A stretch of DNA of 64,000 nt from Megalonaias nervosa (Eukaryota > Mollusca > Bivalvia > Unionida > Unionidae): assembly GCA_016617855.1 (NCBI GenBank), contig JAECUM010096252.1:40322-104321 (forward strand), written 5' to 3'. The notes beneath the pieces are model-generated. The model searched no databases and was not told the origin of the DNA. It saw only the letters and a program-made list of their open reading frames with translations. The stretch's first letter is position 1, and each line of letters begins with the position of its first letter. Position numbers and translations under genes: made by a program. This document shows, piece by piece, positions 5,661-30,829 of this stretch.

Positions 5661-5671
5661 AGGTCTACTAG
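5661..5671 (+). repeat. Left terminal inverted repeat of the two-gene transposon
   Basis: AGGTCTACTAG, preceded by TTAA. Exact inverted match at 30819-30829. Confidence 0.65.
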
Positions 5672-5845
5672 ATTCTAAAACTATATATCATAATGTTCAT
5701 TTTTTCTAAATAACTCCGAAATGTGCATTTAAGATGCAGATTTTAACTCACGGAGGAGAAAATTAAGATTATTTCATCATACATCGAAGTTTTACGAAAA
5801 ATGCTCCGGAAGTAATTATATATTTCAGGTGAAAAATAGGATTTC

Positions 5846-5857
5846 CGGAAGTGACGC
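5846..5857 (+). promoter_or_regulatory. Shared ETS/CRE-like promoter motif, left gene
   Basis: CGGAAGTGACGC lies 40 bp upstream of the P2X7-like start codon (5897). The same 12 bases occur on the other strand at 30627-30638, 72 bp upstream of the THAP gene start. The motif resembles an ETS site (CCGGAAGT) fused to a CRE half site (TGACGC), an arrangement common in broadly active animal promoters. That reading is inference. It may be part of a subterminal repeat of the transposon. Confidence 0.55.
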
Positions 5858-5896
5858 ACTGTCGAGAACTCCCCCAAGTTTAGCTATGTGATCATA

Positions 5897-6646
5897 ATGG
5901 CTGAATCTAGTGACGACTCTAGCGACTTTATGGCAAATTTGTCATGCTGATCTTCGTCGTTTGAGGAAGGTGAACCCCTAGAAGATGGCCAACGTCATAA
6001 TCTGAAGAAGATTCTGCTCGCTTTGAGGTGAGGCCGTATCAATTTCAGGCCGTATCAATTTCAGGCCGTATCAATTTCAGCCCGAACGAGACGACGATGA
6101 AGGCCCTGAAGAGAACATAGCGCATGATCAAGCTGAGCAGAGCTTGGACTCTACATTCTGGTAATTACTATTATCATTATTGCAATTATTGCTAATGTTA
6201 TTATTCATTCGTTAATGTTATTTCAATTTCATAATGAAAGAGAAGTAAACGAATTTGAGCAAAAGCTTGTTGGATGTCTTAAGAGCAGATTTTCATTTAG
6301 GCTTGGTTTACCAGTAACTAGTGTTACATTTTAACACTTAGACTCTGGCTGTGAGAGGTGTAGATATAAATACTTTATTGACTTTATGACTCAAGTTTGT
6401 TCTTTTAAACCGCGATGAAATGCAGACCCTGAATGTACCTTTTAATCCAGCTAATGGGTATATAGATGCATTGCATACAGGCAGCTGGTAAGATGGTGCT
6501 GGGGATATCTTGGCCGTGAAATCCGAGTTGCTTTGCCATCCTGTGCAAAAGATGCAATCAGGCAGAAGATCCCAAGTGAAGGTGGTAACTACACAGGTTT
6601 CACTCATTTCAGGGACTTGTACTTAGCTTGCAAATGGGATATGTAA
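5897..6646 (+). pseudogene. P2X7 ballast-domain-like protein, broken
   Basis: Exon 1 (5897-6160) opens MAESSDDSSDF. It hits TGA after 17 codons, and then a one-base shift leads into an acidic segment with RPYQFQ and PERDDDEGPEENIAHDQAEQ, ending at a donor (CTG|GTAATT). The last exon (about 6465-6646) carries RQLVRWCWGYLGREIRVALP and a C-terminal NYTGF. These are hallmarks, as I know the family, of the cytoplasmic ballast domain of P2X7 receptors, which also occurs without the channel in many invertebrate proteins. A middle, zinc-binding region is not recognisable, so exons are lost or hidden. A triplicated 16-bp unit (6032-6079) adds 32 bp and destroys the frame. The stop region overlaps the last exon of the minus-strand THAP gene copy, so the two genes are convergent. 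No function should be assumed. Confidence 0.75.
6032..6079 (+). repeat. 16-bp unit in three exact tandem copies inside a coding exon
   Basis: GGCCGTATCAATTTCA occurs three times without change. The unit encodes the RPYQFQ segment of the P2X7-like gene. Two extra copies add 32 bp, which is not a multiple of three. Confidence 0.9.
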
Positions 6647-6769
6647 GACTGGACAGCATTTGACTTGTCTGGCCTCTGGAATCGGCTGCACAGAGATGGC
6701 GGTAACTTTCAACAAACTCTGGCTTCTTGACGATTTTCTCCAGTGCTCCCATAAACTCTTCAACATAGT
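6623..6769 (-). pseudogene. THAP transposase-like gene, last exon, duplicate copy A
   Basis: Acceptor TCTTTCAG|ACTATGTTGAAG. The exon reads DYVEEFMGALEKIVKKPEF and then shifts frame relative to the copy at 7978-8129. It is a redundant, decayed terminal exon left by the tandem duplication. Confidence 0.75.
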
Positions 6770-6785
6770 CTGAAAGAAGGAATTC

Positions 6786-6799
6786 CCCCCCCCCCCCCG
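6786..6799. repeat. Poly-C run
   Basis: A run of about 13-14 C residues within duplication copy A. The corresponding spot in copy B is a short T run, so it arose after the duplication. Confidence 0.8.
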
Positions 6800-6974
6800 T
6801 AATTTAAGAAACTCACAAGAATTACATCCACTTCCTATATCCACACAAACAATTTACCAAAATAAATAAGAGAATTGGGAACAAGATTTAAATAGCATTC
6901 ATTTTAACATAAATATATATTGTAGTAGAATGAATAATTATTTTGACGAGATGTATGATTTTGAATATGTGCTA

Positions 6975-7838
6975 TGTTACGTGTCTAGGCTCGTACAAAA
7001 GTAACAAAGAAAAGTGAAGCCAACAAGCTTTGTAAAATTTAACAAAATAATTTATTTCCCTAGAAAACAAGGTAAAAATATGAAAAAGGACTTGCGGTTT
7101 AAGAATCAAATCCAAAAATTAATCCAATAATTAAAAATATAAACCCCATCAATAAAAAGTTTTAAGTGAATCAAAGTTCGAATCCCGATGAAGTTCCAAG
7201 ATGGAAGGCGATGGCGTCTTCTATAACCTGCTTTGTCCTCATGTGTCAACAGTTCCTTGTTGAATCACCAAAAATAATACTCCAGTTTGGAATTCCGAAT
7301 AATTTCCAATAAATGTCTTTGTCCAAAGATTCTGATGAGCACTAGATATTTCCAGGGAAAATAAATTATTTTAAATAAAAAGTTCAACAAAAACTGGTCA
7401 CAACAAAAATACCTTTGAGCTCCGAAGGTATGAATTACGACTGAATAAAATCACTATGAAACGTCAGTTTTAACCATAACTGAAACGCAATTTAGATCCC
7501 CGTGATGGGGTCGCGTGATCACTTAGTTCAAGGGGCGTAGTAACACCACACGCCAACTATCACGTACACCATGGACGAATTCGACTCTACTGAATGAATC
7601 TTACTAAAAATAAAAAAGTTGTTTACACCAAAGTTGAAACTGGCTCAGAATCTAGGTCAGGAAAAGATACAAAGTTTCTACTACTGCGTGTTTATCAGGT
7701 TTAGCAGAACTGAACTGAATTTTCTGGAAAAATGTCAAATCCAGTAAATAAAGTTTCAATAGCATGTAATGAAATGAAATAAAATAAAAAAGAAAGTTGA
7801 AACTAACACACAAGTAATTAAATTACATATACGTAAAA
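6975..7838 (+). mobile_element. Solo LTR (TG...CA-type element), copy inside duplication A
   Basis: It begins TGTTACGTGTCTAGG and ends ATACGTAAAA; the better-preserved copy at 59464 ends ACGTAACA. Both share AGGCTCGTACAAAA, CCAACAAGCTTTGTAAA and AATAATTTATTTCCCTAG, an internal GATCACTTAG/GGTCTCTTAA block and the TTACATATACGTAA end. GCTA lies on both sides (6971-6974 and 7839-7842). The paralogous duplication copy B at about 8325-8345 is an empty site, which proves insertion. No internal genes are visible, so a solo LTR is the simplest reading. A non-autonomous DNA element with 8-bp inverted ends is the alternative. Confidence 0.75.
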
Positions 7839-7883
7839 GCTACAAAAATGAATCCGCATCGACTTTGTTTTGGTTAGATCCAT

Positions 7884-8352
7884 GAAATCTAATTTGCTTT
7901 GCCATTCTGTGCAGCAGATGCAATCATGGGGAATTTTCCAACTGAAATAGTAACTACACAGGTTTTAGGCCTTGTGCTTATCTTGCAAATAGAGATGAGT
8001 GAGCCTGGACAGCATTCGACTTGTCTGGCTTCTGGAATTGGCTGCATAGAGGTGGAGGCAACTGTCTATCAACAGACTCTGGCTTCTCGACCATTTCCTC
8101 TAGTGCTGCCATTAGTTCTTCAACATATTCTGAAAGAAAAAATTTTTCCCTGGTAATTTATCAAGCTCAGAAGAATTTCATCCACTGCCTATATTCACAC
8201 TGATAATTAACCAAAAATAATTAATGGAACTAGAAAGAAGATTTAAATAGTATTCATTTAACATAAATATAAATTGTAGTTCAATGAATCATTATTTTGT
8301 CACAATATATGATTTTAAATATGTGCTACAAACATGAATCTGCATCAATTTG
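7884..8352. repeat. Tandem duplication, copy B
   Basis: Aligns end to end with 6517-6974 plus 7839-7868. It retains ALPFCAADAI of the P2X7-like C-terminus on plus (7895-7990) and a better-preserved THAP-gene last exon on minus. GTGCTACAAACATGAATC at about 8332 is the uninterrupted version of the LTR target. Confidence 0.85.
7978..8129 (-). pseudogene. THAP transposase-like gene, exon 10 (last)
   Basis: Acceptor TTCTTTCAG|AATATG. It reads YVEELMAALEEMVEKPES, then LPPPLCSQFQKPDKSNAV, and stops at TAA 7978-7980. The exon itself is intact. Confidence 0.85.
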
Positions 8353-8375
8353 ATGTATTATATATGGGTACATAC

Positions 8376-8527
8376 TGTATGTGCAGTCTTCCTTGTATTC
8401 TTTTACAATGTACTCTCCTTTTTGTACTTCTGAAATGAAACCTTGTATCAGCTGGTCCACAGATCGTCATTGTTTGAGTTCTGTTGGCATTTTCATTGAA
8501 ATGGAGTTCCGCTTGAGCAGTCTAATT
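8376..8527 (-). pseudogene. THAP transposase-like gene, exon 9
   Basis: Acceptor TTGTCAG|AATTAG, donor ACA|GTATGT. The conserved pieces FNENANRTQTMT and KGEYIVKEYKEDCTYS are visible but lie in different frames, so at least two small indels have occurred. Confidence 0.8.
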
Positions 8528-8812
8528 CTGACAAGAAAAAATCCTTAAAATAGCAAACAATGCAGTTTTTGTATTCAAACATTATGTGGTACTTTATATA
8601 TGAAATAGAAGAACGAATGTCTTTGTTTGAACAGTTCAAAGCAGTATATGGTTTTTACTTGTGAATATATTTGTATGGATGCAATTATTAAATTATTAAA
8701 CATTTCATCAGACTTTGTCTTTTTTTCTGATTAGCTGACAACTATGAAAATAGCCATTGTTAAGATTAAAGAATCAACTTTAATGAATTTTCGTAGGTTT
8801 TACACAATTTAC

Positions 8813-8984
8813 CTGTTTCTCATTCCGCAGTACGAAAAAGCCAACATTTTTGGAGCGAAATAGTTAACAACACTATGGAATGCTTCTAAATTTGAAGTCT
8901 GGTGGAAGGGTGACAACTCTTGGATGTCTTTCACCAGCTTCTTACTCAGTACAGCTTCTTCAGTCTTCGCACAAGCCTTGGTAC
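8813..8984 (-). pseudogene. THAP transposase-like gene, exon 8
   Basis: Acceptor CTGTTCAG|GTACCAAGG, donor AACAG|GTAAAT. The frame is open and reads VLSKKLVKDIQELSPFHQTS followed by NLEAFHSVVNYFAPK, a strongly conserved block of this family. Confidence 0.9.
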
Positions 8985-9256
8985 CTGAACAGAGATTAAT
9001 ACTATGCTGTAGCTTGATCAATCATAATAAAACAGACACCAATTTTTAAACTTTGTTATATAGCAGGAAATAAAAAAAGGCTTCCTAAAGAAATCTACTA
9101 ATTAAGATCTTTCTTAAAAGTACAAAACATGTAATTTGAATTATGTGAAGCTTTACAATTTAATAAAGAGATGACTTATGTGAGCTCTTTAAGAACAAAC
9201 ATATCCTTTAAATGTTATTGTAGGTTATCAAGTTTAATATTAAATGTAATCCATAC

Positions 9257-9514
9257 CAGATTGTAACCATTTGTAACGTGCATTGTCTTCAGGTAGACAA
9301 TCATGCAGAAAGCTTGGAAACATACCATTTTCATGTGTAAGCCTATTCTGGGCATGATTAGCTACAGAATGCCACTTGGCAACACTTAGGTCACCATTTC
9401 CAGGTTCGGTTGAAGCTGCACGCCAGTACACGTAATTTGAAATACTCCGAATCCATTTCCTCAGATCCTCACATTGCCTTTCTCTGGCAATGTGTTTAAG
9501 TTTCTTCTTCACAC
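9257..9514 (-). pseudogene. THAP transposase-like gene, exon 7
   Basis: Acceptor ATTTCCAG|GTGTGAAG, donor ATCTG|GTATGG. Open frame with CEDLRKWIRSISNYVYWRAA and DLSVAKWHSVANHAQNR, a Cys/Trp/His-rich conserved block. The preceding exon (26742-26922) joins in phase despite 17 kb of inserted Polinton. Confidence 0.9.
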
Positions 9515-9694: not shown

Positions 9695-9744
9695 ATACAC
9701 ACATACATACATACATACATACATACATACATACATACATACAT
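9695..9744. repeat. (CATA)n microsatellite at left Polinton junction
   Basis: About ten CATA units end exactly at the Polinton terminus. Related CATAC sequence resumes to the right of the other terminus (26711-26740), so the Polinton appears to have inserted into an intronic microsatellite. Confidence 0.9.
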
Positions 9745-9877
9745 AGTAAAGGAAAACAAGGTTTCTAGCTCAGAAACCCTCCTTTCCCCTCCAAAACCCT
9801 TCTATGTTGACATTTTCTTCAGCTTCGATGATGACTTTAATCTGACAAAATAAGGGGTCTCTGATCTAGAAACGACT
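9745..9877 (+). repeat. Polinton left terminal inverted repeat
   Basis: Pairs with 26573-26706, with about 13 differences over 133 bp. Weak similarity continues inward for perhaps 30 bp. Confidence 0.95.
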
Positions 9878-9878
9878 G

Positions 9879-10366
9879 TTACAGCCATGTTTTATGATAA
9901 TTATTTTCGTACTTGCTAATTCTCATCGGCAGAATATCTGTTAACATACTGTCAATAATACGGAATTCTTGCATTAAATCATCCATATCATATTTTACAC
10001 CTCGCAAATAACATCTTATCTGATCAAGTAATTTTTTGTAAGTGATACTTGCTGTTTTACAAGCAATTTTTTTAGTCTCAACTCGAGGATCAATTTCTTT
10101 TTACACGCCGTTGAAAGAGAAACACCAACACCAGATATTATTAACAAAAACGGATTTAACGATGCGCCACTTGAAATTATACCAGAGCTTGTCATGAGCA
10201 GTGGTAAATATGATATTGCTCGAATTATTCTACTGTAATACTTGTGACATTGTTTAACACACCAAAGGTTTTTATGATAATATCTATAATATTGCATTAG
10301 ATCGTCAACATCTTGTTTTGGAATTTCTTCTGATATATGATTGAAATCGATGATCTGTTTTTTCAT
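9879..10366 (-). pseudogene. Polinton left-arm gene 1, unknown, hydrophobic
   Basis: The start at 10366 gives 116 open codons to a stop at 10016. Near that stop a shifted frame continues with coding character (DDLMQEFRIIDSMLTDILP) and ends at TAA 9879-9881, two bases from the TIR. One frameshift is therefore likely. Residues about 50-85 are hydrophobic (YLPLLMTSSGIISSGASLN, then FLLIISGVGVSLS), compatible with one or two membrane segments. I do not recognise the family. It is the outermost gene of a leftward cluster of four. Confidence 0.6.
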
Positions 10367-10422
10367 TATACAATATTTGCTTACAATTTTTACACGAGAG
10401 TAAAAACACTAGTACCAACAAT

Positions 10423-11131
10423 CTAATAAAAAAACTCACGGGAATTATTATTGTTAGGATCAGCTACAAAATCTCTGTACTTGTCATAAACATCTGACGA
10501 ATTATCTCTATATCTTCAATCTGTTAGTACCTCATTTTTCTTCAACCAAATGTAGGAATCAAACGTGTTTTTACTTAATTTTATACACCCCTGTTTTATT
10601 AATCAAATTACTATATTTTCTTTCTGTTTCATCAATAAACCCAAGTACCAAGTTTATTTGATCCAAAGTAAAATTTTGAGAACAAGATGTTGTCTCAGAA
10701 TTGCGTATGCGACTATGAAATTTATTAGCATTACTCCTCGTAGTTTGTCTTTGTCAATTTTGAGAAGACCAATAACAGAAGCTACTTTAAACATTAATTT
10801 TTCGTATGGTTTCGTGAGTATTTTCTCAACTTCATTATAATAATTTCGTAATGACAATTGTCTAGAGCGCTGGAGCAATGAAGTGGAATATTATTTTCTT
10901 CACTTATGTCGTAGTAAGAATAAAACGTTTCTTCCAACTTTGTTTGTGCTACTTCTTCAAAAAACTTTTCTCGCTCAACATCACTGAGATTATCAATTTC
11001 ATAGTCTAATTCTTTGATGATCTCTAGAGATATGTCAACAATAATCGGATCAAATTCTAGTTTTTTTCACGTATCATTGGTAGAATTGCGTTTGAGTATA
11101 CTTTTATGATTAACGTTGTATTCGCTGCCAT
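10423..11131 (-). pseudogene. Polinton left-arm gene 2, unknown
   Basis: Starts MAANTTLIIKVYSNAILPMI. A frame change follows within 25 codons, then an acidic stretch (ELDYEIDNLSDVEREKFFEE) and, after another shift, LRNYYNEVEKILTKPYEKLM and KDKLRGVMLINFIVAYAILR. The reading ends at TAG 10423-10425 with further breaks. A soluble, helix-rich protein of about 230 residues is likely. The family is unknown to me. At least three frame breaks show it is dead. Confidence 0.55.
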
Positions 11132-11183
11132 TGTAACGATTTTAACTAGGGTTTTCTTGTCGTGGTAGTACATATCGAGATAA

Positions 11184-11666
11184 TTAAAACTTTCTGTTTT
11201 TAAAAAACCTACTGTATAATTCCCTGTTCCTATTTATTCCTATTGTCCTAGATTTCTCTAGTTTTTTGAGACGATTATAGTTATCGTTTATTTTTTCCTC
11301 CTGTGCTATTAGTGCTAATAAACCGGATTGTATTATCAAATTTATACTTTTAGAATCAAGCTCAAGCAATATTTTTTAGACAGGATTTCAACTTGTTTTT
11401 GTTCTTCTAGACAATCATCAGGATGACAGTATCTGCTTATAATATCAAAGTTTTCTATTGCTTTTATTAGTTGTGGTCTCGCATATACATAACACGAACA
11501 AATGTTTCTTCTTCTTTTGACAATGGAGAATTTATCATTGTAATTGTAAAATTTGTCATGGTATTTATCGCACGTGCCGCTAGTGATTTGTCCCCAACAT
11601 CTATTTTGGGGTTAAAAACAGTATCATTAATTCTCCTGCAACGGTTATAATTGCTGGTTCAGACAT
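11184..11666 (-). pseudogene. Polinton left-arm gene 3, unknown
   Basis: Starts MSEPAIITVAGE. Later segments read KSLAARAINTMTNFTITMIN and RPQLIKAIENFDIISRYCHP, and finally a 61-codon open piece with NDNYNRLKKLEKSRTIGINR. Several frame changes separate them. The composition suggests a helical protein of about 165 residues. No motif is recognised. It sits head to tail between the fibre-like gene and left-arm gene 2. Confidence 0.55.
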
Positions 11667-11670
11667 TATT

Positions 11671-13206
11671 TTACAACGTTAGATTAAATCTGATCATCAA
11701 ATGTGTATATTTGAAATGTGTCAATCCTGGAAACGGATGTTCAGCAGCGATAACATAAACTCGGAAATGCAAGTACTTGTTAACAGTATTTTCTGTCGGA
11801 ATCGTAAAATATTGTGTTGTTGAAATATACGTGTTTTCTGTACTGTATAATATTACCCAGTCGATATCATTGTTTGATCCTTCCAATCGCCAATTATACA
11901 TTCGACAAACACTAGAGCTTAATCAACCTCGCAAATGAAATTGCCAAATAGCATCTGCAATGGGACATTTAATTTTAATCAAAAAATTTTCAACTTCTCC
12001 GTTAGCAGTCCATTCTTGTCAATCAGAAAAAGCGTGATAAGGATAATTTTCAGGATAATATGATGATGCACTTACCTCAAACCCAACTCGGTTATCAGTT
12101 GCTTTAAAAAGTGTTGGAATATACCCAACATTGTTTTTGGTTCGTTTTATACCACCACTAAACATACTATCAACGTATGCTTTATTTGTCAGATCATTAG
12201 GGTTAACTGGAACATATAACGTTGTTATTTTGTTATTTCTCATATTTATGTTACCTGACATTGATCCACCGGATTGTCTTCAATACGGAACAAGTGCTCC
12301 TCGTAAGTGAGCGTAACTAATAGCATCAATCCCATTAGCTGGTGGTGAAGTTGTCGGTAATCCAGTTATTTTTGAGTCATTATTCATTACAAGGTTACCT
12401 GTCATTGTGTCGCCAGCTTTATCTAGCTTGTTATCGTTAACAGAATCGACGTAAGCTTTATTTGTTAGATCAGAAGGATTAACTGGAGCATAACTTGTTA
12501 TTATTTTGTTAGGTCCCATATTTAAATTACCTGTCATTGTACCTCCGATTATTTTTACAACGTTGTCTTTAACAAATCTAACATTAGTCAGCCAGACATC
12601 ATTACTAAGACTTATATTGTCAGGTTGAGTATTATAAATCAACTTACCTCACATAACAATCGATCCAGTCATCATTCCACCAGATAATTTTAAATACGGC
12701 GTCAGTGAACCTTTTAACTGAGCATAGCTAATAGCGTCTGTATCACCAGCTGGAGGTGAGGTTATCGGTAATCCAGTTATTTTTGAGTTGTTTCTTATTG
12801 TTAAGTTACCTGTAACAGTTCCACCGGCTTTATCAAGCTTGTTATCATCAACATACTTCAACTGTAAATAACTTACCGCTTGTGTTTGATTTAAGTTTCT
12901 TGGCGGATACGCTGTTTCTAAATTTTTTTTCCTGACATATCCAAGTTACCGCTTAACGTTCCTCCTGTCAGTGATTGTGTGTTATTATCTATCGTTTTTA
13001 GTTGTGCATAACTAACAACTTGTGTATCAGCAACATTTATTGGCGGATAATTTGTTTATAACCTAGAACTCGTTGATTTGACATAAATAAATTTCCTGTC
13101 ATTGTGTCGCCGGGTTTTTGACTAGCGATGACGTATCGGTTATTGTTGGTTCGTCGGCGGAAACAGATCCTGTAAGTGCTGTTCCAAACTTTGTGTAATA
13201 GGCCAT
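11671..13206 (-). pseudogene. Fibre-like virion protein with phage-tail-fibre-type repeats and discoidin-like head
   Basis: The start at 13206 (MAYYTKFGTALTGSVSADEP) is followed by five to six repeats built on GGTMTGNLNM, KITGLP, DLTNKAYVDS and DAISYAQLKG, at about 13110-12010. Such repeats are known from trimeric tail and receptor-binding fibres of tailed phages. The C-terminal 150 residues contain YHAFSD, KCPIADAIWQFHLRG and RMYNWRLEGSNNDIDWVILY, resembling a discoidin/F5-8-type carbohydrate-binding fold. The likely role is host attachment (inference). Breaks: several frameshifts and stops, in at least seven places. The total span corresponds to about 510 codons. Adenovirus-like fibres are an alternative comparison, but I see no adenovirus knob signature. 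Confidence 0.75.
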
Positions 13207-13244
13207 ATTATGTAAATTATATAACATAAAATTATATAACAACA

Positions 13245-13946
13245 ATGGCGAAGTCAACGACATTAAATTTTGACACCGATCGATTAATCAAACATAAACA
13301 CAATAACGAACATCCAGATTGTCATTATCTTATTGTTAGTCGTACAGGCTCTGGTAAAACAAATCTTTTTGCTAAATCTCTTACTTTACAATAACTTTAA
13401 CTACGATAAGGTATATATTTACACAGTTAATCCGCAACAAGACAAATACGAGTTATTACGCGAACACAACGATAAACTGCGTGATGAGCTTGACGCTGGT
13501 GATGATATGTTTATGATCAGGCAACCAGAAGAATTAATCCCCGTCAACGAACTTGATTCGTCCGAGCATAAAACAATTGTATTTGACGATATTCCGCTCA
13601 ACAACAAGATGACTAAGATTAAGTCGTATTTTTCATTATCGCGTAACAAAAAAATGTAATTCGATTTATCTCGCGCAAGGCTATTATAACGTTGACAGAT
13701 TTATTAGGCGAAATACGGGATGTTTATTACTATTTCCTGGACTAGATAATGTTGATGCAAGAAATATTGCAAACGAGTAATGCGGTGATGTAACAAAAGA
13801 TAAATTTATTGAATTATATCATCAAGCAACTAAAGACAAATACAATTTCTTTTGGGGATTTTTTTGATAAACTAGCGCGTGATCCAGCTAAATGTTTCGT
13901 TGTTGTATCGACATATTTCTATAGTCAAATTTTATATCGCGTATAA
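13245..13946 (+). pseudogene. Genome-packaging ATPase (FtsK/HerA type), broken
   Basis: The start at 13245 gives MAKSTTLNFDTDRLIKHKH, then a Walker A motif VSRTGSGKTNLF (about 13335-13370). A frameshift follows near 13385 and the next open piece carries Walker B TIVFDDI (13573-13593). After another shift come CNSIYLAQGYYNVDRFIRR and FPGLDNVDARNIANE, ending with FVVVSTYFYSQ and TAA 13944-13946. This is the order and spacing of Polinton/adintovirus packaging ATPases. They drive DNA into capsids and are about 230 residues long, as here. The catalytic motifs are preserved but the frame is lost at four or more places. It heads the plus-strand virion gene cluster. Confidence 0.9.
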
Positions 13947-13956
13947 AATATAAACA

Positions 13957-14428
13957 ATGGACAAGCATCAACAAAAATTTGAATTACTAAAGAACTTTAT
14001 TACAACTCGAGCTGCTTTTAAGAAAAAAGTGGAAGAAGTTCGTCGAGGACAAGTTCAAGCAGAAGAAACAGCCGCTAAATTTTTTAAACCTGTTACCGAA
14101 GCAGTACCCGGTAAACAACCAGAAATATCAGCATTATTTCCAGAGGAACTAATAAAATTAAAAGTAAAAGGGTTGTTAGGTTTACTAGGAGAAAGATCAA
14201 AAGAGGGAACTAAAAAAAAAAAAAGAGGAACTTGTTAGAAATATTGCTGATCCTGTTGCACAACAGGCTGAATTTGATAGATTAATAAATGACCCTTTTG
14301 AGCTACAACGTGCTATTGCAAGATTGACGGTTAATCCGGACGAGTTAAGAAAGTTGATACAAAATTTATCGGGGCAAACTGAGGAACTAGCTGAAAAACA
14401 AAAAATGATGACTGAATCTATCGCATAA
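13957..14428 (+). pseudogene. Polinton gene, unknown, charged helical
   Basis: The start at 13957 (MDKHQQKFELLKNFITTRAA) gives 93 open codons into a run of 12 A residues (14210-14221). There the frame slips, and it continues as NIADPVAQQAEFDRLINDPF and ends AEKQKMMTESIA with TAA 14426-14428. One slip joins the two halves of a roughly 155-residue, lysine- and glutamate-rich helical protein. The family is not recognised. The A run could be a mutation hot spot or a sequencing-length error. The next gene starts 4 bp downstream. Confidence 0.65.
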
Positions 14429-14431
14429 ATA

Positions 14432-15020
14432 ATGCCGCTCAAAAAACAGATAATACTTTTCAGAAAAAAGGAACGTGATAAAATATCATATGAAGAATAT
14501 AATAATTTTATTAGTAAACATAATATTGGAGACATTGACAAAATTCGAGATTGGTCAGATGAAGAATATCAAAATTTAACAGAACAATTAACAAGGATTA
14601 TAGAAAATGGGTTAAATGCTGATAACAAAATAAAATATTTAACAGAAAATGAAGATTTTTTAAAGAGAATATGATATTATAAGAGAAGGAATTATTGCTG
14701 ATCTTTTACATATGACAACAGAACAGTATCGAAATAAACCAGGAGGTTATGGTAAAGGTTGGACTTTTAAAAGACTATTTAATGAGTACGAAAGCGAACG
14801 AGATAGAAGATTACCAGAGGAAACAACCGGGTCTGGTTTTAAAGTTTTTGCATCAAACGCAGAAATGGATGACAGACTTATCTTATTAATATTATCAAAA
14901 GAACCAGGTAATGAAAGTATTGAAATCGACAACGAAATTGTTGATATATTAGATAATCTAAGATCGCGTAAATTACTGACAGCAGACGAGTATGAAATTT
15001 TACATAGCGATCTTATCTAA
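14432..15020 (+). pseudogene. Polinton gene, unknown, ~195 residues, one frameshift
   Basis: The start at 14432 (MPLKKQIILFRKKERDKISY) is open to 14674. Then a shift near 14670 leads into YDIIREGIIADLLHMTTEQY and GKGWTFKRLFNEYESERD, open to TAA 15018-15020. The second half contains a GSGF motif and an acidic C-terminus. The charged composition suggests a soluble protein. I do not recognise it. Spacing is 3 bp from the upstream gene and 14 bp to the penton-like gene, so the cluster is compact. Confidence 0.65.
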
Positions 15021-15034
15021 CAACTTTGTTAAAA

Positions 15035-15775: not shown

Positions 15776-15803
15776 ATTTTGTAAACCTAATTTAATAACA
15801 AAG

Positions 15804-18817: not shown

Positions 18818-18858
18818 CTGACGAAGGTAAATATTTTTGTCGACGATTAAAAAATAAA

Positions 18859-20704: not shown

Positions 20705-20740
20705 ATTATAATATATTTTTATCTAATTTACAATAATAAG

Positions 20741-21756: not shown

Positions 21757-21862
21757 TCTTATGTAACTCAAATTTTGTGTCATTATAATATAAGCATTTT
21801 TATATCTCTAATTGATTTTTCAACTAGCGATATCAATTACATATATAAAATGTTATATAACA

Positions 21863-24800
21863 ATGCTGAAATTGCGAGATACAGCCAAAAGGAGCCTTAT
21901 AGGACAACCTACAAAAATAGCTACCGCTTTTGCAGGATTTGATAACAGTTATAAATTTGATAACCAAAATATTTTAGCAAATTTTAACTCTACAAATTTG
22001 TTTCATCTTCTGCATCCGACTGTAACGCGAGAACTGCAGTATATAAAAGTATCAAACTAATAGTACAGTATCATGTTGTTTTATCAAAGTTACATAATAC
22101 AGATTTCAGCAACGAGATTGCTGAAGCATATATAACAGCTAAATCACGAAAAATATTAGCTGGAACAAATATTTCCTCAGTTGCCGATGAAATACATCAG
22201 GAAATAAATTAAAAAATTGAAAGAATTTACTGCATCAGGATCAGGTTGGAAATTTGAGGTGGTGGAGGAAGTTTTATTTCACACAGCAAGATATAACGTA
22301 CTTCGCGGTAGTTCTTACGTTGATCTCCCTCTAAAAATTAAAAACAAAAAATGTTGCTTAAACGTAAACAACTCTGATAACAAATGTTTCCAGTGGGCTA
22401 TTCTTTCTGCGATGTTTCCAGCTGAAAAAAATGCTGATCGCGTTGACAAGTATATTAGTCACGTATCAAAATAAAATTTTAATGGCATTGACTTTCCAGT
22501 TGCAGAAAATCAAATACCAAAGTTTGAAAAGCAAAATAATATTTCAGTTAATATATTTGGTCTTGACAAGCGTGAAAACGTGTATCCAAGGTATATTTCA
22601 GAAAAAGCTTCGCAATCAAGAATAAATTTGCTGTTTTATAAGAATCATTAAGTTTGGATAAAAAAACTTTAATGGCCTAGTTGGTAGACAATATAATAAA
22701 GATAAAGATAAGAAATATTTCTGTTATCGTTGCTTACAAGATTTTTCTAAGGATGAAAACCTGCAAGAGCATGTTAAATACTGTGTTAATATTCAAAAAA
22801 TAACAATGCCAGGAGAAAAAGAAAAAGCTTTAAAACTTCAAAAATTATAACCATAAATTAAGTATTCCGTTTGTTATTTATGCTGACTTCTAGTGTTTAC
22901 TTGTTCCCGTGGCAGGCGCAGAAAATGATCCAAATAAATTAAGCACCAGAAAAACAAAACAACATGTTCCCTGTGGAGCAGCTTATAAATTAGTTTGTTG
23001 TGCTAACGACAATTTTTCAAGTCCAATAAGATTGTACAGGGGTAAAAATCATGCTGTGTGGTTACGAAAAAATTTAATAGATGATGTTAATAAAATTTTC
23101 AACAGATTATCTAAAACAGCTCCAATAAAAATAACACCCAAACAACAACTTGATTTTGAGGAGGCAGTTAATTGTCATATCTGCTAGAAACCTATGCCTG
23201 GCGATAAAGTGCGCGATCACTGTCATCTAACTGGCCAATATCATGGAGCAGCACATAATAAATAATTTTCGTGGTTATGATAGTCATATTATTGTCGAAG
23301 CATTTGGCGATGAGGAAATTAAATCTAAACTAAAATTAAATAATGTAATAAAATGTATTCCGAACAATTTTGAAAAGTATATGTCAGTTATGCTTGGCAA
23401 ATTACGTTTCATAGACAGTCTGTAATTTATGGCAGCACCGCTGGACGAGCTCGTAAAAGGTTGTAGCAGTTTTGGTAATCTGAGAAGTTACTTTGATGAA
23501 GACTAAGTCGTTCTGACAAAAAAGGTGTCTTTCCGTACGAGTACCTCGACGACTGGAGCAGATTTGATGAAACTTCTCTGCCTGACAAAGATAAATTTTA
23601 CTCACAGCTAAAGGCGAAGGTATATCAGATGACGAGTAAATATATGCATAAGATATTTGGAATAAATTTGGTTGTAAGACACTTGGTGATTATCATGATT
23701 TATATTTTAAAACAGATGTGTTATTGTTAGCTGATGTTTTTGAGAGCTTTCGTAAAGTTAGTCATGAAAATTATGGATTAGACCCGTGTTGGTATTATTC
23801 TGCGCCAGGATTGTCATGGGATGCTCTGATAAAAACAAGCAGGACAGAACTGGATCTCTTAGCTGATGTTGATATGTTTAATTTTATTGAAAAAGGGATT
23901 CGCGTCAGAATTTGCGTTATAGCCAAAAATTATGCGGTAGCTAACAATAAGTACTTAAAAAATTACGATAAAAATTTACCGTCAAATTACACTATTTATC
24001 TAACACTTATAATTTATATGGCTATGCAATGTCAGAGCCAATGCCGTGCAGTGGATTTCATTGGATAACTCCAGATCAATTTCTTAATGAAACTGAGAAA
24101 ATCTCCCAGAAAATATCATTTACTTTTTTGAAGTTGATCTTGATTATCCTAGTTCGTTACATGATCTACATAACGACTATCCGTTTTGTGCAGAGTCAAT
24201 GATGATCGATTACAGTTTATTATCGCCTGAACAACAGGAAATAACAACAGCAAAAACATTTGATCGTTAATAAGCTAGTTCCAAATTTGTTAAGTAAAAG
24301 AAATTACGTGATACATTACAAAAATTTAAAACAAGCAGTAGATGCTGGACTAATTCTGAGAAAACTTCATCGCGTGCTAAAATTTAATCAATCTCGTTGG
24401 ATGGCATATTTTATATTGATTTAAATACCAAACGTCGTGCTGTTGCTAAGACTGATTTTGAGAAATATTTTGTTCAAGTTGATGAACAATTCTCTGTTTG
24501 GTAAAACTATGGAAAATATCAGAAAACGAGTCAATATTGAAGTTGTAAATGATGTAAATCGCAGAAACAAATTAGTCAACAATGACAGTTTTGTCAGTAT
24601 GAAAATATTTAATGAAATCTTTTTGCAATACAGCGATGAAAGAGAAATTTAAAGTTAAATGAACAAATTTATGTTGGTGCAGCTGTACTTGACATATCAA
24701 AATGGCTAATGTACGATTTTCACTATAATTTTACCAAACAACAGTGGCAGATTCGGAATTGCTATTTACTGATACGGACTCACTTGTTTATAACATAAAA

Positions 24801-25278
24801 TGTGAGGATGTTTATCAAGATATTTATAAATACCGTGACCTATTTGATTTATCGGATTATCCAGCAGATAGTGGATTTCATGATGATGCAAATAAAAAAG
24901 TCATCGGCAAGATGAAAGATACATTTATGTTTGTGCCAGTTAGGGAATTTGTTGGACTCAGAAGCAAGATGTATGCTGTAATTTTAGATGACAATAAATT
25001 GAACAAAAAAGCAAAAGATATTCCTTATGGGTATGTAAAAAAGTGTATGGAATTTGATGATTTTAAAGCAGAGCTAAACACCTGCACTAATTTTATTAAA
25101 ACAAAATGTTATCAGAACAAATCACCATAAGCTTGAAACAGATACAATTATAAAATGTGGACTAAGTAATTTTGACGACAAACGATATTGTGAGGACGGA
25201 ATTAATACGTTAGCTATTGGAGACATTATGCCAGTACCAGAGGTGATATATTCAATATCATTAATTAATTTTGTCTAA
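21863..25278 (+). pseudogene. Protein-primed family B DNA polymerase (Polinton pPolB), heavily broken
   Basis: Start at 21863 (MLKLRDTAKRSLIGQPTKIA). The conserved N-terminal block GSGWKFEVVEEVLFHTARYN to NKCFQWAILSAMF lies at 22236-22420. A Cys/His finger (YFCYRCLQDF, HVKYC) is near 22720-22785. Exonuclease I is cut by TAG at 22891 exactly at its second acidic codon (YADF*). CHIC*KPMPGDKVRDHCHL (stop 23185) is a further finger. Motif A is lost in a frameshift near 24005. Motif B, MNNSLFGKTMEN (24480-24515), and motif C, TDTDSL (24768-24785), are intact. The C-terminus reads LSNFDDKRYCEDGINTLAIG and MPVPE and stops at 25276-25278. More than ten breaks in about 1,140 codons. It would replicate the element from a terminal protein. 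Confidence 0.95.
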
Positions 25279-25290
25279 ACTTTAGAAATA

Positions 25291-25547
25291 ATGTTCGAAA
25301 ATTTAACGTTAGCCGATGGAGTTAGTAACAAAATTAAAAATTTAATGGTTAATGCCAGCAATTATCATTTGAATTTAATGATGAAATTTCAGGTATTTGT
25401 TTTAATAAATTTGATAGAATGAAACTCTCGCTTATTAAATCAGATTACAGCAAATATTTTGATTATCTTGAAAAGTTGAGAGACGAGCTTATGTTGAAAT
25501 ACGGTAATCTTCATGATCTGATCAGTGAAGAAAATATACCAGAATAA
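25291..25547 (+). pseudogene. Polinton right-arm small gene 1, unknown
   Basis: The start at 25291 (MFENLTLADGVSNKIKNLMV) is followed by a frame change near 25375. It then reads ISGICFNKFDRMKLSLIKSD and KLRDELMLKYGNLHDLISEE and stops at TAA 25545-25547. It is a short charged protein of about 85 residues, 12 bp after the polymerase stop. The family is not recognised. Confidence 0.45.
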
Positions 25548-25717
25548 ATATTGACCTAAACCGGTCGAAGGTTTTTGCAAAAGGTTGTAAGTATTTTATC
25601 AACAGGATAGCAATGAGAGAGTTATTTCAATGTCATCAAAAAGTAAGCGGAAAAATTAAATTTTATTTGTATAAACACGATAATGAATTATTTCTAATAG
25701 CTACCGTTGATGTTTGA
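25548..25717 (+). pseudogene. Polinton right-arm small gene 2, unknown, no start seen
   Basis: An open stretch reading INIDLNRSKVFAKGCKYFIN, then MRELFQCHQKVSGKIKFYLY and NDELFLIATVDV-like sequence (HDNELFLIATVDV), to TGA 25715-25717. No clear start codon. It may be a continuation of the upstream small gene after a frameshift. Basic and aromatic-rich. The family is unknown. Confidence 0.4.
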
Positions 25718-25737
25718 ATAATTGGGGATAAAATTCT

Positions 25738-25822
25738 TTAAAGGGAGATAACTCTGTCGGTCTTCCTTGTATTTTGAAGGAGATAACTCTGTCTTTCTTG
25801 AATTCTAAAGGGAGATAACTCT
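25738..25822. repeat. GGAGATAACTCT motif, three dispersed copies
   Basis: AAGGGAGATAACTCT-like 15-mers occur at about 25741, 25780 and 25806. I associate this motif with molluscan intergenic and UTR sequence. Within the Polinton right arm it is non-coding. Confidence 0.6.
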
Positions 25823-26219
25823 TATAGGTTGATGTCTCCCTTGCGTTTTGTTTATAAATAATTATATTTGCATTTACTGATAAATAATGTTGTTTTTATT
25901 GGTTTTTTAAGAAATATTATCTTTGTTTTTATGATTTTGTCAAGTTTGTTGCTTCTTTCAGATTTTTTCAGAGATAATAATTAAGATAAAAAGAAAAAAA
26001 TTTCAACAATAAATAAGCCACTCCTACTGTGTGAGCTACTTTTAGGTTTTCAAGTATTGGTTAGCTTACATACAATACAATCCTATATAGTTTGGGGTCC
26101 GCCCCGAATTGCTCTAACTTCAAGAGAAAAGCACACTCACCACATGGTGGGTGCATTTTTGCACTCCCCGGGATTGATTATGGGGGAGGTGTACTTGTCT
26201 GTTGAACGTAGAGAAGGCC

Positions 26220-26520
26220 CCGTTTGTGTATGTGCCATCCCTAGAGATAAGTTAGTTTAGTTTATGTGTATGTGCCATCCCTACAGATAAATTAGTTAAG
26301 TCCTTAGAGATAAATTATGTGTATCCTCTGAGCTTGCTTGGATGTCGTTTGGCAACCTAGGAGTTCACATGGGGGTTGTGTTTCGTCTAATTTCGAATGT
26401 CCTCTGAGCTTGCTAGGATGTCGTTAGGCAACCTAGGAGTTCACATGGGGATTGATTCGAATCCCCCTGAGCTTGCTAGGATGTCGTTTGGCAATCTAGG
26501 AGTTCACATGGAGTTGTGCT
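26220..26520. repeat. Polinton right-arm tandem repeats (~64-76 bp unit and a shorter one)
   Basis: Three copies of a unit containing GAGCTTGCTAGGATGTCGTT and CCTAGGAGTTCACATGG start at 26324, 26400 and about 26464. A shorter duplicated unit with GTGTATGTGCCATCCCTA precedes it (about 26226-26300). No coding potential is recognised. The location beside the terminal repeat suggests a subterminal regulatory or packaging region, which is speculation. Confidence 0.8.
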
Positions 26521-26572
26521 GTGATTATATGTTTTGTAAAACTATTTTAAATCATAACAGTAATAGAAAACA

Positions 26573-26706
26573 AGTCGTTTCTAGCTCAGAGATCTTCTTA
26601 TTTTGTCAGGTGAAAGTCATCATCGGAGCCGAAGAAAATGTCAACATATAAGTGTTTTGGAGGGGAAAGGGGGGTTTCTGAGCTAAATACCTTGTTTTCC
26701 TTTACT
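26573..26706 (-). repeat. Polinton right terminal inverted repeat
   Basis: Inverted partner of 9745-9877. It ends CCTTGTTTTCCTTTACT at 26706. Confidence 0.95.
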
Positions 26707-26741
26707 ACTACATACATACACACATGTACGTACATACATAC

Positions 26742-26922
26742 CTTTTGCAACATGTCAAACATCAAAATAGTGTGTGGCTGTCATATTCTCTCTGATCCAT
26801 TTCTTTATCTGGATATGCATGTCTGTACTAATTGTGCGCACCTCCACACCATGGTTCTGTAGTTTTTGATGGCTCTAGAAAGTCCCTCTTTCTCCATGTG
26901 ATAGCTGCTCATTATATCATTG
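26742..26922 (-). pseudogene. THAP transposase-like gene, exon 6
   Basis: Acceptor GCCTTAAAG|CAATG, donor GCAAAAG|GTATGT only 35 bp from the Polinton end. It reads SSYHMEKEGLSRAIKNY. Then, after a frameshift, TDMHIQIKKWIRENMTATHY ends in FDV*HVAK, with TGA where the family has a conserved Trp. The TD-H motif is the presumed second acidic catalytic site. Confidence 0.85.
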
Positions 26923-27135
26923 CTTTAAGGCAAATAACACTATGTCTTAAAATGTCACTTATACATAGCTTAAATGTATTTAGCAAATGTTTTGCTCATT
27001 TTCTTGCATGAGTAACATGAATGAACGCTTTCAAGTACATGAAAATTTGTACTGTGGCAAAATTGAAATATTTATCAGAATATTCTGTTATATAAATATT
27101 TGAATTTCTATCTGGTAAAGAAGCACACAAATTAC

Positions 27136-27874
27136 CTGTACCAGCTCAATATCCAGGACTTGTCCCAAATTAGCCTCTAGCACACGCTAGGCTCCAAGCA
27201 GGCCCGGCCCTAGGATGTGCGGGACCCAAGGCAGCATGCGGGGCCCAAGGCAGCAAGCAATGAGTGTGGGGCCCCAAGCAAAAAAAAAAAAATGCATCGC
27301 AGAGTTGATTTCCGTCAGCAATGCGGGGCCCTGAAAGCGCGGGGCCCAAGGCGGTTGCCTCGTTCACCTTGCCCAAGGGCCGGGCCTGGCTTCAAACTTT
27401 GCACTGTGGCCTGGACTATCACAGCAACCATCCCCAGCAATAGCAATTGGCTAAGGAACACTCTGTAACTCTCCAAAAGCCCTACTCTGATGCGCCTTTC
27501 ATACTTTATCGATAGTAGGGGTGAGTACCACTCGGTGGTGGGCCATGAATGTGGACAGGTGCATCACTGGGATATATACGTGGTGCATAACCCGAAGAAC
27601 CTTTGTTGGAGTTGCACCTGCAAAAAGGATGGCTCCTGACAAGATAACGTTACCGGCTGGCATATCTCCAAGGTAGAGCTGGCTGTTCTAAGTGCATGAC
27701 TTGCTACACAGGCGGCACTCCTGTGTAACTGTAATTAAAGTGTCATATGTGTGAGTCACTGTCCCTTTTGCTGGTCCATGGCAGTAGCGACAAGTCTAAA
27801 ATAATGACAACAACTGTTCCTCAAACACAATAAACTTTCTCTCGGACATAAGGTTGGTGGATTGTTGTTCTGAA
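27136..27874 (-). pseudogene. THAP transposase-like gene, exon 5, with MITE inside
   Basis: Acceptor CTTTCCAG|TTCAGAAC, donor GTACAG|GTAATT. It reads SERKFIVFEEQLLSLF*TCRYC, then NSQLYLGDMPAGNVILSGA and ILFAGATPTKVLRVMHHVY, and finally IAGDGCCDSPGHSAKF. Four in-frame stops are visible (K/W codons turned to TAG or TGA). Immediately after AKF the exon is split by a 190-bp MITE. The reading resumes with ANLGQVLDIELVQ. The motif GDG-CDSPG is usually GDGRCDSPG in this family. The R to C change is a further decay sign. Confidence 0.9.
27199..27388. mobile_element. hAT-type MITE, 190 bp, GC-rich
   Basis: Terminal inverted repeats CAGGCCCGGCCCTA and AGGGCCGGGCCTG. The flanking 8-mers GCTCCAAG (27191-27198) and GCTTCAAA (27389-27396) differ at two positions, consistent with the 8-bp duplication typical of hAT elements. 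The interior is rich in GGGGCCCAAGGC and has a run of 13 A. It is non-coding and sits inside the exon 27136-27874. Confidence 0.8.
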
Positions 27875-28110
27875 CTGGAAAGAAAATAAAAACATAATAG
27901 GGGCAAGTTTTTAGAATTGAGCAACAAAGATTTTTTTAACCATCCACGAAATTTATTATTTAGTAATTGTTATGTCGTGCTGATAACCGGTTTAATATGT
28001 GGAAAAACTTACTGAATTTTATAGGCCATAAATAGTACTATTAAAAATCTGAAAGCATCATCAAATCAGTAATGATTTCATACATGCTGAGCTCATGCAA
28101 CATACCTTAC

Positions 28111-28282
28111 CTTTTTTCCAGAGGTATTTGAGTTAAGGCTGGAATCAGTAGGGTCACTCTCATCTGGTTTGTAGCGTGAATCATCTGACTCATCATCAAT
28201 ATCATGAACATCAGTATCAGGGTCTGTGTCCAGTTCATCAAAACTGTCTATATTGTTCTCCATTTCATTATCTTTGGGATGT
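28111..28282 (-). pseudogene. THAP transposase-like gene, exon 4 (acidic linker)
   Basis: Acceptor TTCTTTAG|ACATCC, donor AAAAAAG|GTAAGG. It is open and strongly acidic: FDELDTDPDTDVHDIDDESD, SRYKPDESDPTDSS. Probably a disordered linker between the THAP domain and the core. Confidence 0.8.
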
Positions 28283-28695
28283 CTAAAGAACAATGAATGC
28301 CTTTGCTAATTCTCTGTACGTGCCGGATATTTACCTGACAACCTGTGAAATGTGAAATTTCATACACGTGTATACTGATCATCATGGTTTTCACACAGAT
28401 GAGTAATTCTGATGAATATGCTTATGAAAAAAAGAATGTATTATTGCTCAATAACAAAAAGTGGACAAGTGCTTGGTATACCGAGACAATTGTTTACACG
28501 ATCATACTGAGCTTAGTTAACAAAATGTTGCATGTGTCATTTGCTTGTTAATTTTTAATGGTGAGATTGTAACATCGAGTCAATTTACATCAATGAATTA
28601 CAACAGTAGACATGCATAGCATGAATGAAAGATATTACTAAACTTGATGAGTTGAAATATCTGGTGGTGGAGTGTGAAGTCATTCATGGAACTAG

Positions 28696-28696
<1 letters not shown>

Positions 28697-28763
<67 letters not shown>
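28697..28763. repeat. (TA)n microsatellite
   Basis: About 33 TA dinucleotides, 10 bp from a splice donor. Confidence 0.98.
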
Positions 28764-28765
<2 letters not shown>

Positions 28766-28772
28766 ATATTAC

Positions 28773-28881
28773 CAAAATCAATTTGTTTTCCTCCCACTAA
28801 TGCTTGAATTCTCTTTGATCTCTTAAATATCCTGTCCGTCTGACATTCAGCAGCAATATTACATGATGGTGTGTCTAGTCC
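28773..28881 (-). pseudogene. THAP transposase-like gene, exon 3
   Basis: Acceptor ATGTTTCAG|GGACTAG, donor TTTTG|GTAATA. Open: NIAAECQTDRIFKRSKRIQA, a basic segment. Assigned by splice sites and order rather than by a strong family motif. Confidence 0.65.
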
Positions 28882-29160
28882 CTGAAACATAAGCAATACA
28901 TGAAAAATGTGTTGGCAAATTCTAGTGAATAACTTTGCGTTAGATAAGGTGGTCATACTTTAAGTTTTATGCATGTTTGAACAATAATTGACAAATGCAT
29001 CAAACCTCTTTTGTTACTTATAGAAACTGGGGCTGATCATAAAATTTGACATATAACCAACACATTGCAGATCTTTATCGCATTAAATAATGAACTATCT
29101 TTATTGATTTACTCGTATGCTATCATTTATGAGGCCATATGAAATCGTATGAAGCTATAC

Positions 29161-29323
29161 CAACCATTTGAACACTGGAAATGCATGGAAAGATCTCGGT
29201 GACATCAATATGCACACCATGATATGTCACACCATCTACTGTTGACTGTGTTATTGGTGTCTCTTGGGCTCTCTCTTGTACAATATCTTCTGGATGCTGG
29301 TTCTGAAAAATCTCTTTCAACAC
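29161..29323 (-). pseudogene. THAP transposase-like gene, exon 2
   Basis: Acceptor TTGTTAG|GTGTTG, donor GGTTG|GTATAG (less certain). Open: VLKEIFQNQHPEDIVQERAQ and a linker-like remainder. No family motif is recognised. Confidence 0.6.
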
Positions 29324-29702: not shown

Positions 29703-29709
29703 GGAGCAA

Positions 29710-29743
<34 letters not shown>
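29710..29743. repeat. (GAT)n microsatellite
   Basis: About 11 units, directly next to the hairpin. Confidence 0.95.
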
Positions 29744-29745
<2 letters not shown>

Positions 29746-29942
29746 CACACCATTTAAACACGAGAAGAAAACTTGTGATATGTCATTATTATTTTTGTTG
29801 AAAACAGCAACAGTCAGGAAACAAGCTATGGCATCCACAAGAATTGTTTCTAGCGTAAAGTCCAAACAATGCTGGAGGGGGTGGGGTAGCAAATAAAAAT
29901 CACAGGGATATACATTTCCCTTTGATTTTGGCTTTGTACCTT

Positions 29943-29945
<3 letters not shown>

Positions 29946-29980
<35 letters not shown>

Positions 29981-29981
29981 G
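29946..29981. repeat. (CG)n(CA)n microsatellite
   Basis: Short CG run followed by about 15 CA units. Confidence 0.95.
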
Positions 29982-30160
29982 ATTATGATAAAGTAGGTTT
30001 CATATTTTTGGGGGTAGGGGTGGACCAATTACGATTTGCAAACACCCTCCCACTAAAACCACCCTCTCCCATTAATCGCTCGTTTGCTATGTATATTTGT
30101 GGCAAGAGTGTAGGGTTGACAGCAAATACTATAGCATGCTAAAATCTATAAACTTGTTAC

Positions 30161-30555
30161 CCTTGCTAGCTCTCGCTTTTGAAAAGCTCCTCTCGGGCTA
30201 CGTTTTGTTAAGCCTGCAATAACCCTTGGTTTTTGTTGATCTGTGTGCATGTACTCCGGGTTATCTGGTGAGAAAACACACTTGGAACTGCATTTGGCAG
30301 GAGACGTCCAATGGTCTTAATCCCAAGTGACTGTTTCATTTTATAGGCGGGATCGAAATCGTCTTCTCAGAAGTGGTCACTACAGACAACTTGATTATCT
30401 TGCGTGTCACTAGTCGACTCAATCCAGTCTTTTCTTGTCGTTCGTATCTGCTTAATATATTGTTTCCTTGTAACAGAATTAGTAGGAAATGAGTGCAGAC
30501 TCACTCATTCTCGTGTTGTATTGCTACAACCTCCAACAATACACCTTTTTACCAT
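30161..30555 (-). pseudogene. THAP transposase-like gene, exon 1 with THAP zinc finger
   Basis: The start at 30555 gives MVKRCIVGGCSNTTRE, with the first Cys pair of a C2CH THAP finger. A TGA follows. Later come TRKDWIES, the second metal pair in VVCSDHF, another TGA, then DDFDPAYKMKQSLGIKTIGR and the AVPxxF box in LLPNAVPSVF. The donor is at CAAGG|GTAACA. THAP fingers bind DNA and are found at the N-terminus of P-element and Kolobok transposases and of many domesticated proteins. The finger itself is intact apart from the two stops. Confidence 0.9.
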
Positions 30556-30626
30556 TTTGTTTCACACACGGCTCTAGCCGTTGAACGTAACTAAAATGAA
30601 AATTGGAAAGCTGTTTTCCCTTCACC

Positions 30627-30638
30627 GCGTCACTTCCG
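30627..30638 (-). promoter_or_regulatory. Shared ETS/CRE-like promoter motif, right gene
   Basis: CGGAAGTGACGC on the minus strand, 72 bp upstream of the THAP start codon and 181 bp inside the right end. It mirrors the motif at 5846-5857. Confidence 0.55.
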
Positions 30639-30818
30639 CTTTGTCTTAGGGAAATTACCGAGGGCGAAATCAGCTAAGAGCGAACTGCCTCCAACGATAA
30701 AAAAATCGATGTTCTGTAGTCATTAATGTCATTAATGATGAGGTATATGACAAAATACCTATACAAATCGCTTCGTGAAGGTTAAATTTATAATATGAAC
30801 AAAAGTCGTGTGAGTGCA

Positions 30819-30829
30819 CTAGTAGACCT
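30819..30829 (-). repeat. Right terminal inverted repeat of the two-gene transposon
   Basis: Inverted copy of AGGTCTACTAG, followed on the plus strand by ATAA (30830-30833). Confidence 0.65.

Follow-up and report, generated by a model that had tools for sequence, protein, structure and literature searches.

A convergent gene pair between inverted termini

The 64,000-nt stretch of contig JAECUM010096252.1 of the mussel Megalonaias nervosa analysed here (hereafter the window) contains, between positions 5661 and 30829, two genes that read inward from a pair of inverted termini, and this span is very probably the remnant of a Kolobok-type transposon. On comparison with Pfam, the last exon of the left gene matches the P2X7 ballast domain (P2RX7_C, PF20478) at 2.9e-9 on positions 6455-6643, and the right gene matches the THAP domain (PF05485) at 2.5e-7 on positions 30370-30504. 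The termini are exact inverted copies of the 11-mer AGGTCTACTAG, which has no further exact match in the 64-kb window, and the element ends AGGT...ACCT, so that the 5'-RR and YY-3' termini of Kolobok are present. The 12-mer CGGAAGTGACGC forms a second exact inverted pair, and its two sites remain the only ones when up to two mismatches are allowed anywhere in the window. Counted from the outer ends, the 12-mer starts at position 186 on the left and 192 on the right; the distances of 175 and 181 bp given in the initial annotation are correct when counted from the inner edges of the 11-mers. The termini with their TTAA and ATAA flanks, and the inward-reading ballast gene on the left and THAP gene on the right, were likewise found as that annotation had described them.

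KolX, which Kol0 Kolobok transposons encode as their second protein, is reported to have a P2X7 ballast fold (Kojima and Bao 2022, PMC9587614), and its name is used here for the left gene. A KolX with a ballast domain, a feature of Kol0, is present both in the window copy and in the best of the 20 related proteins found with the left-gene read-through, a 202-aa protein of Sinanodonta woodiana (P0037; 48% over 92%), which itself contains PF20478 and matches P2X7 receptor chains and structures at 2e-10. The cysteine-bearing domain of KolX is recognisable across eight aligned relatives, and no tblastn match to the middle, zinc-cysteine part of the protein (P0037 residues 80-153) was found in the window copy.

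The right-gene read-through finds 36 related proteins, the best of which is a 537-aa protein of S. woodiana (P0001; 74% over 70% of the query), and other relatives come from bivalves, a hemichordate, a lancelet, fish, a sponge, and ticks. A THAP domain, a DDE core, and an H2CH zinc finger have been given as Kolobok features in a paper on Xenopus Kolobok (PMC6004289). The DDE core with its C/DxxH motif is present, as D201, D268, E414, and H291 of P0001 are invariant and D288 nearly so among ten aligned relatives, the catalytic identity of D201, D268, and E414 being judged from motif and position. The H2CH zinc finger lies between C/DxxH and E, with H348, H353, C363, and H365 of P0001 invariant in ten relatives. 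The acidic catalytic residues remain legible in the window copy, in which the W of DxxH is a stop codon and two of the four H2CH residues have been lost. The window copy is decayed, with stop codons, frameshifts, an unmatched middle KolX exon, and an intron of its transposase gene occupied by a 17-kb Polinton. Further transposase matches elsewhere in the genome, several of them without stops, have only 31-46% identity to P0001 and represent other Kolobok-like families.

A Polinton-type element within the transposase gene

A 17-kb block inside the span is bounded by a separate pair of 111-nt inverted arms (9744-9854 and 26597-26707) that are 92% alike. Residues 1-296 of P0001 map to the right of this block and residues 295-537 to its left, on one strand, and the block therefore lies in an intron of the transposase gene, whose donor (26741) and acceptor (9515) were placed by eye. 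Without the block, the outer element measures 4083 + 4122 = 8205 bp, including further inserts at 6975-7843 and, within the transposase exon 27136-27874, at about 27202-27387. The initial annotation gave 5661-30829 as its span and about 7 kb as the size of the mobile unit, without mention of the nested block: the two ends do belong together, and the unit is an 8.2-kb element split by the Polinton. The window sequence up to 9702 and that from 26735 onwards are contiguous in three other copies (L010, L012, and L022), which therefore have no Polinton at this site.

The nested block resembles Polinton/Maverick elements in its terminal inverted repeats, its retroviral-type integrase (rve) with a chromodomain, and its double-jelly-roll capsid match, and also bears PLA2-like and HNH open reading frames (ORFs), the former matching a family of parvovirus type (PF08398). 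Polintons typically encode a protein-primed DNA polymerase B and are flanked by a 6-bp target duplication. Polymerase-like pieces were recognised by eye at 22894-25130, four of which were compared with Pfam and gave no match, and the insertion point lies inside a CATA repeat that masks any target duplication. The nested element is independent of the Kolobok transposon and merely inserted in it. Its ORFs at 12019-12945 (- strand) contain a repeated motif, NPxDLTNKAYVDS...DTMTGNL, that by eye resembles a repeat of tail-fibre type; two of these three ORFs were compared with Pfam, with none above the cut-off.

The element belongs to a many-copied family

A search of the 2.19-Gb assembly (54,709 contigs) for TTAA joined to the terminal 11-mer, TTAAAGGTCTACTAG, gave 198 + 215 = 413 matches, against 3 + 5 = 8 for the reversed pattern. 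Among the matches listed (100 of the 413), 32 form 16 plus-then-minus pairs on the same contig within 25 kb, 14 of which were read whole (L009-L022, 1.3-6.1 kb) and two in pieces (L024-L028). KolX and the transposase gene converge between the ends in 14 of the 16 pairs (12 of the 14 read whole and both of those read in pieces). The N-terminal THAP piece is present in all 14 fetched elements, 11 of which keep only its C-terminal half. Eleven copies of 3.5-6.1 kb form one group that is 82-94% alike in matches longer than 600 nt; neither the last KolX exon nor the bulk of the transposase was matched in this group, where pieces of both genes and the C-terminal THAP half remain, and its members are non-autonomous copies that were likely moved in trans. 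The gene-bearing copy nearest to that of the window, L018, has both 12-mers exactly and is 83-88% identical over the four longest matches (72-88% over all). A 68-bp tandem repeat harbours one copy (L017/L023) in one of its units; when the flanks of this copy are joined, they align with the adjacent units across a single TTAA, and these units serve as natural empty sites.

The pairing of the two genes was also examined from either gene. The best 30 KolX loci (2.5-3.3 kb each), drawn without regard to termini from 150 scored of 1362 first-look candidates, include 28 with transposase matches on the opposite strand. A terminus with at most one mismatch lies ahead of KolX in 17 of the 30, next to TTAA in 14 and to a one-base variant in three; TTAA had not been required, and together with the empty site at L023 these termini agree with the 4-bp TTAA target-site duplication of Kolobok. 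From the transposase side, 81 of 1515 candidates were scored, giving 103 matches, and 33 same-family loci were counted from 61 of these; 21 of the 33 lie within 10 kb of a listed KolX, and all 21 are convergent. The gene pair is not a single-copy host arrangement.

These searches are those that the initial annotation had proposed, namely for other copies with the same ends, for TTAA duplications or empty sites, and for both genes between the same termini, and all three gave positive results. Its view that both genes form one mobile unit, with the ballast domain as a Kolobok accessory gene, is borne out by the shared termini, TTAA flanks, empty site, convergent pairs, and abutting coding ends; its description of the element as single is contradicted by the many copies.

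The gene junction and the subterminal block

The ends of both reading frames were resolved in 20 loci, and in 19 of these, 6 nt separate the last matched codons of the two genes. These six nucleotides are two abutting stop codons, TAG|TTA, in 16 of the 20; one codon is changed in three (L039, L046, and L052), and the arrangement is lost in L033. The junction has been duplicated in the window copy, and likewise in L018. In the window, the duplicate at 7880-8328 is not a second KolX but carries the transposase last exon, and an apparent 25-nt overlap of reading frames within it (7978-8002) was rejected because comparison with relatives makes it evident that the KolX stop there is altered and that abutting ends are the state of the family. 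Between the two junction copies lies a dispersed repeat (6975-7843) that also occurs at 59464-60405 and 752-905, the copies being 65-67% alike.

In 20,000 Markov-resampled end pairs of equal size, chance produced a common 11-mer in 4.1% of cases and a common 12-mer in 1.2%, and the shared motifs are by themselves only moderately improbable. The initial annotation had considered a chance mirrored match unlikely, and it is the genome-wide copies that decide the matter in its favour. Among 14 elements with 28 ends, the 12-mer lies with up to two mismatches at 188-192 nt in 23, of which 11 are KolX ends (out of 14) and 12 transposase ends (out of 14); all 17 further KolX ends have it, at the same tolerance, at 179-192 nt. 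In a control of 2000 single-base shuffles of one end, nine gave such a match somewhere within 400 nt. At 111-220 nt the two ends have in common an inverted block that has diverged (score 18 versus 4.4 +/- 2.2, reached by none of 1000 resamplings), within which the 12-mer stands out most clearly, and no likeness between the ends was found at 12-110 nt, where 194 of 1000 resamplings reach the score. In letters the 12-mer is similar to an ETS/CRE-type promoter element. Its spacing is fixed by the termini (about 190 and 191 nt) and not by the start codons, which in the window lie 51 nt away on the left and 83 nt away on the right, and this favours the 12-mer as a candidate transposase-binding site.

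Interpretation and alternative explanations

The element in the window is read as a decayed copy of a many-copied Kolobok-type transposon that carries a THAP transposase gene and KolX tail to tail and is likely to have moved by cut-and-paste into TTAA, a reading to which a probability of about 0.94 is assigned. As to the roles of the two proteins, we infer that the THAP finger and zinc finger of the transposase would bind the element ends at the 11-bp termini and probably at the subterminal block with the 12-mer, that cleavage at the termini and their joining to TTAA would fall to its DDE core, and that KolX, a small predicted zinc-binding protein, may serve as an accessory factor in the transposition reaction.

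Several observations weigh against this reading. The right flank of the window copy is ATAA instead of TTAA. Among the matches listed, one close pair (C6500, 14 kb) is oppositely facing, and in one of the 16 pairs (C1353, 20 kb) KolX begins 15.7 kb from the left terminus, which perhaps belongs to another copy. L011 and L019 (1.3-1.6 kb) have the shared ends and the THAP exon, at 82.6-94.2% to the window, and no KolX match. Family members without the partner gene had been foreseen as evidence against the pairing, and these two partly answer to that description; both ends and the THAP exon are kept, however, and they are most simply explained as internal deletions. L031, in which all KolX parts are matched, and L037, which lacks the first exon, have no transposase match in 2.7-3.2 kb and are decayed copies or possibly free-standing genes. 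The best 30 KolX loci are partly redundant, as L043/L044 and L048/L049 each look like a single element present on two contigs and L056 coincides with the L018 locus. Twelve of the 33 transposase loci have no listed KolX nearby, two of these being the halves of the window copy; they are not clean absences, because only 150 of the 1362 KolX candidates were scored and the window's own KolX is itself unlisted. Finally, the likeness to Kol0 lies in KolX and the shared features, and membership of the transposase in that lineage is putative.

An accidental tail-to-tail arrangement of two independent host genes, with mirrored motifs due to chance, would fit the few-per-cent probability of motif sharing alone and the report that ballast-domain genes are one or few per species and linked to two markers across animals (PMC7016195). 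However, 413 TTAA-terminus matches against 8, both genes in 14 of 16 pairs, convergence of all 21 listed neighbours, and an empty site leave this explanation a negligible chance, and the many copies rule out two unrelated host genes. Fusions of a virus with a transposon do occur, Teratorn being an example, and the virus-like genes of the window do sit between Kolobok ends, as expected if the whole 25-kb span were one such fusion with these genes as cargo of the Kolobok transposase. The virus-like block, however, has its own 111-nt arms and an integrase with a chromodomain, it splits transposase pieces that are contiguous in P0001, the sides are contiguous without it in L010, L012, and L022, and 14 whole copies are no longer than 6.1 kb. 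A single fused element is therefore very improbable and was rejected on the separate arms of the block, its intron position, and the contiguous sides.

The Kolobok reading leaves room for a KolX without a role in transposition, either as a passenger or as a protein acting on the host, for example in transcription or defence. The role of KolX in transposition is a predicted one, and KolX in cis is not required of a substrate, since L011 and L019 kept both ends without a KolX match. Deleted copies can, however, use proteins in trans, and KolX is reported through the Kol0 lineage in vertebrates, annelids, cnidarians, and sponges (PMC9587614); this spread, together with a cysteine-bearing domain still recognisable in eight aligned relatives, suggests selection for a shared role and makes a non-participating KolX less likely than not.

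Relation to known systems

The pairing of the two genes, which the initial annotation had thought undescribed, was published in 2022 by Kojima and Bao (PMC9587614); these authors attribute Kolobok itself to Kapitonov and Jurka. The element described here shares with their Kol0 Kolobok a DDE transposase with KolX, TTAA target duplications, and 5'-RR...YY-3' termini (AG...CT here). The mussel family adds to this the abutting coding ends, the duplicated gene junction, and, some 190 bp inside either end, the mirrored subterminal motif; no mention of these was found in the abstract and consulted sections of PMC9587614. Among the matches listed from the literature since 2020 on P2X7 and its ballast domain, only that paper mentions Kolobok, and no paper was found that combines P2RX7 and Kolobok by those names. 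KolX was found named in one paper, and a link of P2X7 and its ballast domain with transposons only in PMC9587614. One review (PMC9319628) contains the words P2X7, THAP, and Kolobok.

Rump et al. 2020 (PMC7016195) recorded the domain from oyster and limpet, as well as from a tick ORF in which a 'TAHP' domain, here taken as THAP, precedes it, and described ballast genes as one or few (<10) per species without expansion into large families. KolX has the same domain, PF20478, as the P2X7 receptor ballast and the NANOR-like ZCD genes of that paper, but P0037 has no channel part, and KolX is a many-copied transposon gene, in contrast to the fewer than 10 genes per species reported there. It is tentatively proposed that Kolobok elements are the native setting of the P2X7 ballast domain, that most free-standing invertebrate ballast genes may be KolX, held to the transposase by abutting stops and by promoter or transposase sites that match between the two ends, and that the reported ancestral synteny could at least partly be linkage within or between transposons.

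The family, with its 413 TTAA-terminus matches, is a large and well-bounded natural set for testing a transposon origin of the ballast domain, and it demonstrates that ballast-domain genes can become numerous in a genome through mobility. Its termini, TTAA, subterminal motif, and deletion derivatives offer clear substrates for asking what KolX does. New here is a mussel family of many copies whose coding ends abut and whose two ends carry the subterminal motif in mirror image.

Features and surroundings of the locus

Table 1. Features of the Kolobok-type element and of the Polinton-type element nested in it (window positions).
Feature	Position	Strand	Basis
Left target-site TTAA; left terminal inverted repeat AGGTCTACTAG	5657-5660; 5661-5671	+	exact match
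Left subterminal 12-mer CGGAAGTGACGC	5846-5857	+	exact; ~190 nt in other copies
KolX first exon; internal stop codons; 16-bp unit x3 (by eye)	5897-6161	+	tblastn, P0037 residues 4-79
KolX last exon, C-terminal part of P2X7 ballast domain	6464-6619	+	PF20478; tblastn, P0037 154-201, 85%
Tail-to-tail junction; KolX stop site now TAC (6620-6622), transposase stop TTA on + strand (6623-6625)	6620-6625		by eye against relatives' TAG|TTA
Repeat between the two junction copies, related to 59464-60405	6975-7843		65% over 969 columns
Junction duplicate with second transposase last exon	7880-8328		sequence comparison, 78% to 6514-6974
Transposase exons left of nested element; catalytic E site (SNLEAF)	7981-9514	-	tblastn, P0001 295-537, 50-80% identity per piece
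Nested Polinton/Maverick-type element	9744-26707		arms 9744-9854 / 26597-26707; Pfam matches
Capsid-like ORF, double-jelly-roll match	16219-17214	+	Pfam
PLA2-like ORF	18814-19215	+	Pfam, PF08398
Integrase pieces: rve; chromodomain	19398-19646; 20023-20232	+	Pfam
HNH_3 ORF; weak NUMOD1 match below cut-off	20971-21663	-	Pfam
Transposase exons right of nested element; first and second catalytic D sites	26742-29323	-	tblastn, P0001 1-296, from 28263 leftwards
Individual right-side exons	29165-29323; 28773-28881; 28111-28282; 27136-27874; 26742-26924	-	splice borders by eye
First transposase exon, encoding the THAP zinc finger; one apparent frameshift and two stops in frame	30164-30555	-	PF05485
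Right subterminal 12-mer CGGAAGTGACGC	30627-30638	-	exact; ~190 nt in other copies
Right terminal inverted repeat; flank ATAA (one base off TTAA)	30819-30829; 30830-30833	-	exact match

Outside the element, positions 61737-63417 (- strand) contain what resembles by eye the end of a non-long-terminal-repeat retrotransposon, with the end of a reverse transcriptase and an RNase H; two of its three frames were compared with Pfam and gave no match. A long open frame at 38003-40294 (+ strand) possesses leucine-rich repeats and a TIR domain in Pfam and is, by domain content, a Toll-like receptor gene.

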